A stretch of DNA of 64,000 bases from Plumapathes pennacea (Eukaryota; Cnidaria; Anthozoa; Antipatharia; Myriopathidae), in contig OZ038462.1 in assembly GCA_964036295.1 (NCBI GenBank), positions 30,404,855 to 30,468,854 on the forward strand, in the 5' to 3' direction. The notes beneath the pieces were generated by a model. The model made no database searches. It was not told the DNA's origin and worked only from the letters and a program-made list of their open reading frames with translations. Below, one piece after another: positions 24,517-52,869 of the stretch. A program made the translations under genes and the position numbers. The number at the start of each line of letters is the position of its first letter. Positions within the stretch are counted from its first letter, which is position 1.

Positions 24517-27500
24517 ATGGACTTCTTTGAGATTTTCCGGAGTTTATCCTTTGCTGCGGTGTTATACTTCTGCCTCGTAGTGTGTCTAGTAGCTGTAGTT
24601 GTGGTGAGTATAAATATTCATAGTTTTACTTATTTTCTCCGTCGCACAGGCAAACGATATTCACAAGAATGTGCATGTGATTCAGGTTCTGGGCAGTATC
24701 TGGATGACAACGCTGGATAGAGTGCCGACGATCGCGAGACACGAAAGTGAGAAATATTACAAGGATCCCAATAAGAACAATGCCACGTATCCCTTTCCTT
24801 TCATGGAGGAAGAGGGCTCGTTGGATCTGTCCCTGGTCGTCCCAGCTTATAACGAGGAAGAAAGACGTAAGGATACAAATGCCCCCTTTGTTGTATACTG
24901 CTGTTTTTATGTTAGATTTACCTCTATAATGTCCAAATATGACAGCAATAACATTAGTGTCAATAACACGAATGAATAGTTGATGTCCTTTTATGCAAAG
25001 CTTTGAAGAATTTTTCCAACCTCTTCTGGTCTTTTTCGCGGGGGGGGGGGGGGGTAGGGGAGGAGATCAGGGTCCTAAAGCCCCCGGGGAAGGGGTACTC
25101 CCTTACATAGTATGGGGGTGTGTCACTAAGTCCCTGTCACCCTGACCCTGTTCCAGAGCAAAGAGAGATAATTTTGCTACCCTGATCCGGAATAGAAGTC
25201 AGGGAAATGTGATACACAACTCTACCAATCAGAAATGACAGTTGGCGTTGTATGCCAGTCAACAGTTCTGAGCTGTTTTGCAGCGACAAACTCAGCTATA
25301 AATTGTCAAGGATTCTGGCAAGAAAAATCAACCCTGTTCCAGAGCCACACAAATTGAAAAATATATCCTGTTCCAGAGAGAAACAATGACTTGTATACCC
25401 TGTTGAACAGCACATCCCCGTATAGCCAATACATGGAGCACTTTACCCAGGGCCTAAAGCCTGCAGTAGATATTACCATCTTATTCACCCTTGTCCATCC
25501 TTCATTTTACTCCATCACCAATGTTTTGGCCTCCATTTTTTTTATGTAGTCCCCCTGTATGTAGACAGTCCCTTCTTATGTAAAAAGTTCATTAGTTTTC
25601 AATATTTAACAATTATTCGCCAAAGTGGAGGGGGATAGCGGTGGATATTTACCGAGCCGTTTCGGCCAACTCCCAAATAGCTATTTTATTTCTGACAAAA
25701 ATGAGCAAAAGTTGGGCTCACACACCATTTTGTTTTATCGGAAGCCGCCGGGAGGTGAATAGTACTTGATATTCCGAGATTGAGGGGCCAATCAAAGCAC
25801 GCGAAAAGCACTATTCACTTGTGTGGTATATACTAATCATTTATATATAGACCCCCTGTAGATAGTCCTCATTAATGTCTCAGGGAGTACTCACGTTTAT
25901 AAGCCATATAGGTACATGTGCCACCCCAAAGGATATTGCTTCCATGCATTTTAGTCTGAAGCAGGGTATAGATTTTGTCATGCAGCACACTCATTATGGG
26001 GAGTATCCTCACCCTCACCCCAGGGTCTCATGCATAGTCCCATCCTCTTACATGAAGATCTAACTTTGTAGGAAATCTCATATACCATAGTCCCCTTGCT
26101 TTCAATTTCTCTGTGTTGTATAAAGGTCCCCTTTTTTCATTCTCCATGTATGTAGTTCCCCTGTAGATAATCCTCTTTTAGAAAAGCTCCTTCCTTTTAA
26201 CTGTATCTGTATAGTCCCTTGCCGAGACCCTTGTTTGAAAATCCGAGACCGAGACTTTAACCACTCAGAGACTCCGAGACGGAAAGAAACAAAAATACAA
26301 GACTCCGAGACTCATCAAAAAGGCTGCCAAGATCGGACCAAAACTTTCTGAGGCCCACAATTTTCTAGGTACCATTTGCCACCCCTCAACCACGTTGTTG
26401 ATTTATAAGTTGCTTATGATATCTTTATTAATTACAGTACCAGTGATGATGGATGAAACACTGGAGTATCTTGAAAACCAAAAGGTAAAACCCTGCCATG
26501 TGTTAATTTGAGCTGAGCTTATTTTGCAAGTAGGTCCAGTCACTCTAACAGTCTATTTCCCCTGCAGAAGAGCAAGCCATCTTTTACTTTTGAAATCATT
26601 GTTGTGGATGATGGAAGTAAAGACAAGACAACAGAGGTAAAAAGACTTTGAACAAAATAGAGCTCTCTCCAAATCTTACATTTTGTGTGTTTTATTTCAT
26701 CTTTCACACTTGATCAAGAAAATTGAGTGGGAGAGAAGAGGAGAAAAAAAGTTGCTGCCACCAAGATTTGAAACATCAAGACATTTAAAACAGCCAAATG
26801 TTCATTTTTGTATGGATGGACATTATGATTATTCCAATCTTGTTGTCAATTGATCAAGGGTATTTTGAAGTTTTTGTGGCTATTATTCTGTATAGTTCAT
26901 ATTCATCATATTCTGTAAAGTTCAAATTATCGAAATCTCCCTAAATATTTTGACATTTTGAAGTAGTTCCAGTTTTCTTGAAGTTCCCAAATACCTTCAT
27001 TTTGAAGCTCATTTGACTTTTCTATTTGACATTGATGTAGGTGGCTCTTCAGTATGTGAAGAAGTTAGGGGTCCATCAAATGAGAGTCTTGACCCTTGCT
27101 AAGAACCGAGGCAAGGGTGGTGCAGTCAGACTGGTAGGTGTAGTCAGAGTGCCTTTACACACCTCTTTCACATTTTTATCACACATTCCTGACTTGTCAC
27201 AAACTAAGGCCCCGTTTACAACGTTGGAAACTATTTTGGATACAAAGTTCCCACATTTTTGTATCTGGATTTGTTTTCTCTCTGGATTCTCTAAAAATGA
27301 TACCGGATTCTCATTAAGCTAGTCTAAGTGCTTTTACAAACCCAGAAACAAATGTCTCAAATCCAGATAAATTCACTCTAGTGTAAATTGAGCCTGAATA
27401 TGTTCTATTATACAAGTTACTTATTACAATATACTTATTACAAGGTTGGAATTTAAGTGAAAACCTTACCTTTCCATCAGTCCCGGTCCGAAACACTGAT

Positions 27501-52000: not shown

Positions 52001-52869
52001 TAAAATACTATATCCTTGTGTATAAAGCCCTGGCCAAATGGGCTCCCAAGTTGAGCCAACTCAACCCAAGCTTGCAAATCACTGAACACTTGTGTGTGGG
52101 TGGCCAGACAGTATAGTTTTCCCTAGCTTAACTCGATGTTGGTTACTTTGTCTTGTAATGTTTCATCCACAAATAGTAATGTTAAATGGGAAAAACCATG
52201 GACAGGGGCAGAACCACTAGGCCAGTTTTAGAAATTTAGTTCTCAGCCTCTGGAAAATGGCAAGAGCGAGGGTTGTCCAATGGACAATTTATACTGTAGG
52301 GAATCAGATGGTGTCCAACAGACAGATGTTGTAGTGAGTGAGAATATTCTAAGTGTCTTGCCTACAGACCAACAGCAATTGATGGACAAACTGACGTCCA
52401 CCAGACATTCTTTTTAGAAAGAAGCAAAGATACTGCAAGTGTCCATATGTACAGGCACCCAAAGTGTTGACCGAAGGACTGACAGTCAAACTGATGCATA
52501 CAAGCCAACAAAATGTTGACTGATAGACCGATGGTCAAGCTGATGTATGGACCAACAGTCAAACTTAATTCTCTACTCATCTGTCAGACCCAGACGGGGT
52601 GTATTAGGCATGTGTGAGGACAGTATTCTCCTAAACTCCCTGAAAAGCCTAACGTATGCCTACATACTTCTTACTGGACAGGGTTACATGTAATTTACAG
52701 ATGTGTCAGTAGGGCCAGAATTTGAGGGCATCTGCAGCACCTCCTTATCTAAACTTTGGAGATTCTCTTCACCCCAGCCCCTAGATAAACACATCCTACT
52801 GTACCATTTGCCACTAGGGCATGGCTTCTTCCTTTTCTGTGCTTTTTGACATGCAAGACTGATCACATC
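43099..52869 (-). CDS. SUPT20H: SAGA complex subunit SPT20 homologue
   Basis: Seventeen exons in transcription order: 52869-52805, 51968-51902, 51462-51336, 51168-51140, 50660-50625, 50345-50307, 50132-50022, 49527-49334, 49181-48974, 48387-48107, 47515-47040, 46489-46392, 45739-45551, 45135-45070, 44739-44538, 44098-43932, 43272-43099; all phases agree, 842 residues. Human SUPT20H (FAM48A, about 779 aa) is a SAGA coactivator subunit also linked to p38 and autophagy. Conserved: [90 protein letters not shown]. The C-terminal half is Gln/Thr/Pro-rich and disordered, as in the family. The first coding residues (about 14 in human) are not identified; a candidate exon is listed separately. Stop TAA is at 43101-43099. 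Confidence 0.9.
43303..43513 (-). mobile_element. TTAA-family MITE, reverse copy
   Basis: Reads in the opposite orientation to 30421-30619: 'ccctttcaagcccaggaatg', 'atcaagttcaat', and at the far end 'gagaatttgtattctgaact' and 'gggagttaaagga'. More diverged. It sits in the last SUPT20H intron, next to the foldback at 43571-43905. Confidence 0.5.
43571..43905 (+). mobile_element. ~335-bp nested foldback element, copy 2
   Basis: Homologous throughout to 27511-27835, with the same 'cctcactagtgagga' palindrome and twin hairpins; it has an extra ~10 bp near 'cttttgcacggttg'. Together with the adjacent MITE it fills most of the last SUPT20H intron, ending 26 bp before an exon. Confidence 0.65.
45985..46320 (+). 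repeat. three-copy tandem repeat in SUPT20H intron
   Basis: A ~70-bp block 'acagaaacaacaactacgaa' ... 'caaatacaaatgtgttt' ... 'acaaacaattt' occurs at about 45999, 46103 and 46242, spaced about 104 and 138 bp by pyrimidine-rich filler, ending in a long C run (about 46306-46318). The open frame across it is a repeat artefact. Confidence 0.6.
47793..47996 (+). mobile_element. TTAA-family MITE, SUPT20H intron copy
   Basis: Starts ccctttcactcccaagctc and ends cttgggagttaaaggg, about 204 bp. Closest in its interior to the 7705 copy ('ccttttaagaggaaattgta', 'ctgaaggagaaaatt'). Flanks no longer show intact TTAA. Confidence 0.6.
48490..48790 (-). repeat. dispersed repeat fragment with embedded hairpin
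   Basis: Carries 'cccatctcagattaaaaaga' and 'tttcagaataaaatgcttcaaaaccatacccttg', diverged units of the G-run family in reverse. Embedded is a 17-bp perfect inverted repeat (48580-48596 and 48612-48628, 'gcttatggtattttgc') extended by a few more pairs. SUPT20H intron. Confidence 0.45.
50141..50161 (+). repeat. A homopolymer next to a splice acceptor
   Basis: About 21 A on the plus strand. On the coding (minus) strand this is a T run directly before 'gcacaccag', the acceptor of the SUPT20H exon ending at 50132, so it acts as its polypyrimidine tract. Confidence 0.75.
50846..51029 (+). repeat. (AAT)n-(GAT)n compound microsatellite
   Basis: About 130 bp of AAT triplets changing abruptly to about 14 GAT triplets, then back to AAT. 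It lies in a SUPT20H intron. The frames read as Asn/Asp, Leu or Tyr homopolymers are artefacts. Confidence 0.9.

Follow-up and report, generated by a model that had tools for sequence, protein, structure and literature searches.

A block of four neighbouring genes, ALG5, SMAD1/5/9, EXOSC8 and SUPT20H, common to the antipatharian Plumapathes pennacea and mammals

Are four unrelated genes that lie side by side in a cnidarian and in mammals neighbours by inheritance, or were they brought together separately? The question is raised by a stretch of 64,000 nucleotides from the antipatharian Plumapathes pennacea (contig OZ038462.1, positions 30,404,855 to 30,468,854; hereafter the window, C1:30404855-30468854 in our numbering of an assembly of 290,015,204 bp in 24 contigs), in which genes for ALG5, a receptor SMAD of the bone morphogenetic protein (BMP) type, EXOSC8 and SUPT20H follow one another. 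An earlier reading of the sequence alone (the original prediction) had likened this block to the SMAD9 neighbourhood of human 13q13.3 and had placed its origin before the split between cnidarians and bilaterians. Our analysis makes it very probable that the four genes form an inherited microsyntenic block and were already neighbours in the common ancestor of the two groups; given the mouse and human neighbourhood, common descent is the simplest reading, in agreement with the proposed age of the block. The ancestor would have carried ALG5, a single SMAD1/5/9 gene, EXOSC8 and SUPT20H as neighbours, an adjacency that both lineages would have retained.

To describe the locus, we linked open frames across GT/AG splice sites into gene models. 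The window is gene-rich animal DNA with a guanine-cytosine content of ~41%, and the block reads ALG5(+), BMP-type SMAD(+), EXOSC8(+), SUPT20H(-), all four genes containing introns. ALG5, the dolichyl-phosphate beta-glucosyltransferase, runs on the plus strand from a start codon at 24517 to its stop at 31103 and has 11 coding exons and 347 amino acids in the spliced model, with an uncertainty of up to 12 amino acids at the junction of exons 1 and 2. It is followed on the same strand by the SMAD gene (33196..36832; 435 amino acids), whose four coding exons are at 33196-33598, 34131-34304, 35693-35788 and 36198-36832, and then by EXOSC8, the exosome component RRP43 (38094..42764; 11 coding exons, 277 amino acids, RNase_PH domains). 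SUPT20H, the SPT20 homologue and SAGA component, is a multi-exon gene on the minus strand at 43908..51460, with its stop at 43908 and an approximate upstream limit. This model is supported by exon junctions and by the C-terminal exon with its stop, and its exons run from ~51.46 kb downward. A candidate extra 5′ exon at ~52.69-52.87 kb, plausible by eye only, is the source of the end coordinate that the original prediction gave to the block; the first coding exon or exons may lie as far upstream as ~52.87 kb.

The coding sequences of the four genes are separated by only 2092 bp (ALG5-SMAD), 1261 bp (SMAD-EXOSC8) and 1143 bp (EXOSC8-SUPT20H). A Pfam scan, which covered both strands except for the minus strand at 24.5-24.9, 26.3-31.1 and 38.1-42.8 kb and the plus strand at 44-54 kb, showed no protein family at its cut-off on either strand of the three gaps. 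The only gene found between the block genes was a tRNA-Asp (GTC) on the minus strand of the SMAD-EXOSC8 gap (37924..37995; Rfam RF00005, 60.4 bits; also called by ARAGORN). We also considered a fusion or an operon-like unit and rejected it, because each gene has separate start and stop codons. Possible poly(A) signals occur on both strands of the EXOSC8-SUPT20H gap, so the two transcripts may overlap here.

The SMAD gene encodes an MH1 domain (E 7e-42) and an MH2 domain (E 9e-67). Against PDB sequences the SMAD1 MH2 domain was the best match with 424.6 bits, a "mothers against dpp" chain scored 403.6 bits and the best SMAD2 scored 376.2 bits; the difference between the SMAD1 and SMAD2 scores rules out a SMAD2/3 identity. 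The MH2 domain is identical to that of SMAD1 at 180 of 218 positions, and the protein ends in SSMS, an SxS tail of the receptor-phosphorylated type. EXOSC8 matched human RRP43 with 357.5 bits, compared with up to 159.5 bits for archaeal Rrp42, 111.7 for human RRP45 and 93.7 for human RRP42. For SUPT20H, one Spt20_SEP piece scored above the cut-off and one below it, and six joined exon pieces (221 amino acids, a test protein that lacks ~12 residues present in the human one) matched the human SPT20 homologue with 231.6 bits (E 6e-68), the sole other match being an isoform. The NCBIfam models, which were made for prokaryotes, gave only matches below cut-off for ALG5 and EXOSC8, the best for EXOSC8 being exosome Rrp42 with 215.4 of 280 bits.

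ALG5 is the least secure of the four orthology calls. Its GT2 Pfam piece by itself scored 21.7 bits, short of the curated threshold of 23.3 bits, and its matches among PDB sequences, where no ALG5 was found, were glycosyltransferases of the polyprenyl-phosphate type (best E 3e-11). The model is 61% identical over 292 amino acids to a human ALG5 reference sequence and 25% identical to DPM1; the ALG5 reference agrees with all four residues (R79, R208, R212 and Q235) printed in the consulted text of PMC11284371. One-to-one orthology, or pro-orthology in the case of SMAD, was thus found for all four genes, for ALG5 only via a human sequence checked at these four residues.

To see whether each gene has a single locus, we searched the whole genome. 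All 10 matches to ALG5, all 7 to EXOSC8 and the one to Spt20 fell inside this locus. Five MH2 matches resolved into four SMAD genes, namely the window gene, a SMAD2/3-like gene, a SMAD4-like gene with two exons and a SMAD6/7-like gene, class names that are our own reading of the alignments, and among these four the window gene looks, from its sequence, like the only one of BMP type. Because the genome search scores only the best candidates, these single loci are the sole candidates found and no proof of absence elsewhere. Outside this genome, viral and prokaryotic contigs scanned with the SMAD MH2 domain yielded no animal locus; the single confirmed match, 41% identical over ~44 residues, was to a contig with a bacterial title and was disregarded, and a DNA search of a phage collection returned no match. 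Models, orthology scores and single loci together bear out the proposed order and strands of the four genes. As observations on the other SMAD genes, the SMAD2/3-like and SMAD6/7-like MH2 matches (L002 and L005) lie ~15 kb apart in opposite orientation on contig C2, which also carries the SMAD4-like gene; the latter (L004 1462-1917, minus strand) has an alanine/histidine-rich insert within its MH2 domain.

The mammalian counterpart could be established from printed coordinates. In the gene table of PMC5063463, the mouse genes Supt20 (54692761-54728763), Exosc8 (54728679-54735364), Alg5 (54735539-54749795) and Smad9 (54755457-54801741) stand in consecutive rows on chromosome 3 (build 38), with Rfxap next. 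The four genes span ~109 kb, the spans of Supt20 and Exosc8 overlap by 85 bp, and Exosc8 and Alg5 are 174 bp apart. In human, the equation of ALG5 c.235C>T with g.37569565G>A (PMC11284371) places ALG5 on the minus strand, and that of EXOSC8 c.5C>T with chr13:37574947 C>T (PMC4102769) places EXOSC8 on the plus strand, so the two genes are divergent; SMAD9 c.587 is given at chr13:37446878 (PMC6683566, genome build not stated in the text available). These positions put ALG5(-) just below EXOSC8(+), and SMAD9 further down the same chromosome. The claim that mammals have the four-gene block is therefore supported, by consecutive rows in mouse and by matching positions of SMAD9, ALG5 and EXOSC8 in human.

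How the two arrangements differ depends on two further strands: human SMAD9 and SUPT20H are both taken to lie on the minus strand, and every comparison below that involves these strands is made on that assumption. The human order is then SMAD9(-) ALG5(-) EXOSC8(+) SUPT20H(-), against ALG5(+) SMAD(+) EXOSC8(+) SUPT20H(-) in the window, and two of the three signed adjacencies are identical, the ALG5-to-SMAD tandem and the convergent EXOSC8/SUPT20H pair. Only 10 of 192 distinguishable arrangements are as close as this to the human order. Inverting ALG5-SMAD as one unit would convert either arrangement into the other, which fits both gene orders. The original prediction had described SMAD and ALG5 as swapped relative to human. 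We rejected a simple swap, because ALG5 is directly upstream of SMAD along transcription in both lineages and one inversion explains both order and orientation; with the assumed strands, the change reads instead as an intact ALG5-SMAD unit inverted once.

Inheritance of the block would accordingly have involved two modules of two genes each, ALG5 then SMAD on one strand, and EXOSC8 and SUPT20H tail to tail, with internal order and orientation alike here and in mammals (again with the two human strands as assumed). To account for the difference between the arrangements, it would be enough for the first of these modules to have been inverted once, on the cnidarian or on the mammalian side. As a by-product, ALG5 and EXOSC8 would have come to lie head to head in human, and the 3′ end of SMAD would face EXOSC8 here. 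The divergent human pair might suggest a shared bidirectional promoter, for which head-to-head starts within ~1 kb are expected. In the window, SMAD separates the two genes, which both read on the plus strand; the human pair cannot explain the block, because its arrangement is absent here. No mention of a bidirectional ALG5/EXOSC8 promoter was found in the literature examined, a partial sample of the matching papers.

Could the four genes have been assembled independently, in this lineage and in vertebrates? With random gene order, 3e-8 to 1.4e-7 mammalian four-gene windows are expected to be consecutive here, genome-wide; when linkage groups of 600-1000 genes are kept and only the order within them is scrambled, the expectation is 0.0005-0.002 such windows. 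These figures are closed-form estimates and not permutations on real gene lists. Chance as the origin of the shared block is negligible, and independent assembly, which would in addition have had to produce two identical signed adjacencies, is extremely improbable, even though linkage across the rest of the 13q region is preserved only in part and the comparison covers just this genome and those of mammals.

Several observations nevertheless weigh against common descent of the block. The arrangement test by itself reaches only ~5%, and the claim of one inversion uses assumed strands for human SMAD9 and SUPT20H. Independent assembly is excluded by probability and not by phylogeny, the genomes compared being this one and those of mammals. 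Beyond the four genes, the evidence for linkage is mixed. NBEA and COG6 appear in the same human 13q13.3-q14.11 gene list as the block, in the portion of PMC8471443 consulted. An NBEA/LRBA-like gene, accounting for three of four DUF4704 matches, is on C1 at 11.3 Mb from the block; however, the fourth match, which has the best E-value of the four, lies on C9, and COG6 is on C5, unlinked to the block. UFM1 and RFXAP were not found in this genome, in searches that are weak for short exons and that for RFXAP had no responding control. The outer neighbours of the block, a TMEM63-like, a carboxylesterase and an ankyrin-repeat gene, do not appear among the human 13q genes as given in the same portion of PMC8471443. 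On the cnidarian side, GFP, which is common in anthozoans, was not found in the genome; the control for that search matched nowhere, so its absence is not shown. Overall, conservation is tight across the four genes and patchy beyond them.

The block can be placed among known cases of microsynteny. Robert et al. (2022; PMC8851819) define a microsyntenic block in the text consulted by at least three orthologous genes, between which no more than five others may lie, collinearity not being required; here there are four genes, and they are neighbours in a bilaterian according to the printed mouse coordinates and human positions. The same text infers 162 new blocks in the cnidarian-bilaterian ancestor, compared with 17, 19 and 25 in shuffled genomes, and reports that vertebrates have since lost 85% of them. 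In the text consulted, Zimmermann et al. (PMC10719294) report no microsyntenies of at least four genes in any pair of an anthozoan and a medusozoan species. The present block resembles the planulozoan-ancestor blocks of PMC8851819, as described there, in that orthologous neighbours are common to cnidarians and bilaterians; it differs in comprising four consecutive genes that are kept also in mammals and for which one inversion suffices. With the 13q13.3 and mouse chromosome 3 neighbourhood it has in common the same four consecutive genes, the ALG5-to-SMAD tandem and the convergent EXOSC8/SUPT20H pair (two human strands being assumed), whereas here the ALG5-SMAD module is inverted, SMAD lies between ALG5 and EXOSC8, and none of the outer neighbours identified appears in the human list.

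Our literature search, judged from titles and abstract openings, found no paper describing this block in a cnidarian. The main text of PMC8851819 is without SMAD, EXOSC8, ALG5 and SUPT20, that of PMC10719294 without SMAD and EXOSC, and that of PMC13121700 without EXOSC and ALG5. The block may already stand in the supplementary list of Robert et al. Ancient microsynteny is a known kind of finding, and this block is a well-resolved and notable new member. The subject was reportedly treated by Irimia et al. in 2012.

The original prediction had further assigned the ancestral location to SMAD9 in preference to SMAD1 and SMAD5. These three vertebrate genes are whole-genome-duplication copies of the gene that is single here, and the stretch of MH1 common to the proteins is identical at 121 of 136 positions to SMAD5 and at 117 of 136 to SMAD9. 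Both facts speak against that claim: the window SMAD is co-orthologous to all three genes, and SMAD9 has no special claim among them. When the vertebrate genome was duplicated, three copies of SMAD would have been kept, and ALG5, EXOSC8 and SUPT20H would each have returned to a single copy, beside SMAD9. The peculiarity of SMAD9 is its surviving neighbours, not that it stayed while SMAD1 and SMAD5 moved. For a paralogon in which POSTN/TGFBI and TRPC genes accompany SMAD9 and SMAD5, our search found no printed support, and it was not used as evidence.

Why would the block have been retained for so long? The explanation that we prefer combines slow rearrangement and a compact genome with close spacing that would help at the level of the modules. 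The convergent coding ends are 1.1 kb apart here and the mouse gene spans overlap by 85 bp, and a break in the 2.1-kb ALG5-SMAD gap would risk the upstream control region of SMAD. In its pure form, without any shared control, this is inertia, in which slow rearrangement suffices together with the cost of breaks in the narrow intervals that separate essential genes, and we consider it somewhat probable. The coding gaps of only 1.1-2.1 kb, the finding of each gene at one locus only and the housekeeping nature of three of them (by general knowledge) are in line with inertia, as is the existence of many blocks of this age, 162 new ones against 17, 19 or 25 in shuffled genomes in the text of PMC8851819 cited above. 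On the other hand, no microsynteny of at least four genes is reported between an anthozoan and a medusozoan species (PMC10719294), and of the blocks new at this age 85% are reported as lost in vertebrates (PMC8851819), both in the consulted portions, so that survival in a cnidarian and in mammals is unusual.

The locus also has the composition of a gene regulatory block, a developmental target (a SMAD1/5-type transducer) beside unrelated bystanders (ALG5, EXOSC8 and SUPT20H). It is similar in this respect to blocks such as wnt7-atxn10, described in the examined text of PMC8851819, where a developmental regulator lies beside housekeeping genes, the likeness here lying in the gene content. Such control, added to common descent, would place SMAD1/5 enhancers in the introns or flanks of the housekeeping neighbours, with ALG5 as the chief bystander and EXOSC8 and SUPT20H as further ones, and breaks would be selected against. 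In both arrangements SMAD follows ALG5 immediately and in the same orientation (with the human SMAD9 strand as assumed above), and the 6.6 kb that ALG5 occupies for 347 codons leave room for elements. The examined part of PMC8851819 lists bystander-target pairs among the causes of conserved microsynteny; it adds that cnidarians have no CTCF, and that the retention of such blocks in them implies constraints that predate this factor. However, control regions in Nematostella are mostly close to genes and longer blocks are poorly kept among cnidarians (PMC10719294, text consulted), and the proposed inversion would have changed the position of SMAD with respect to the EXOSC8-SUPT20H pair without any loss, so that a constraint would extend no further than ALG5 and SMAD themselves. 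We regard a regulatory block of this kind as rather unlikely, and inertia with constraint at the level of the modules is favoured over it. The narrower proposal, that ALG5-SMAD1/5 is a putative cis-regulatory unit already present before cnidarians and bilaterians diverged, with elements of the BMP-type SMAD in or beside ALG5, is speculative and unlikely.

Outside the block, the window contains a TMEM63/CSC1-like gene (6000-15000, plus strand), a carboxylesterase in a long single open frame (19100-21700, plus strand) and an ankyrin-repeat gene (~56000-60000, plus strand). In the 20 kb on either side of the window, no 13q neighbour was recognised when the list of open reading frames was examined by eye; a long open frame in one flank (L011 7432-9618) has a start that resembles a CAP-Gly domain, also by eye. 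A dispersed repeat of ~360 bp occurs at 27500-27857 and 43561-43928, its copies being 87-91% identical with partly self-complementary arms, and the second copy slightly overlaps the coding end of SUPT20H (stop at 43908). Translated patterns resembling this repeat recur by eye in the flanks L010 and L011. A long AAT/GAT trinucleotide tract lies in a SUPT20H intron at 50846-51031.

Elsewhere in the genome, there are two STING-like genes (L013 and L014), each with profile positions 1-180 of 182, nearly the entire ligand-binding domain, in one open frame. Among the best 60 of 77 matches of the better STING exon to PDB sequences, 8gjz, 8efm, 8efn, 5cfp, 5cfl and 5cfo scored 155-177 bits and the next at most 113, a gap of ~42 bits between those six and the best remaining match. 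The 5cf entries are from Nematostella and 8efm is from a coral. This closeness is in line with a cnidarian source; on this evidence, a slowly evolving invertebrate bilaterian, with which the block would date back only to the bilaterian ancestor, is a very improbable source.

Because microsyntenies of at least four genes are reported to be missing even between anthozoans and medusozoans and vertebrates have lost most blocks of this age, the locus provides a clean test case for the persistence of gene order. Its division into two rigid modules, related by a single proposed inversion, yields a direct prediction for other animals, and the block can serve as a synteny anchor for calls of SMAD1/5/9 orthologues. 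The ALG5-SMAD interval is a place to seek ancient control DNA of the BMP pathway. If the cis-regulatory proposal were true, the ALG5-SMAD pair would move as a unit and would have stayed together for over 500 million years, whether or not the lineage has CTCF.

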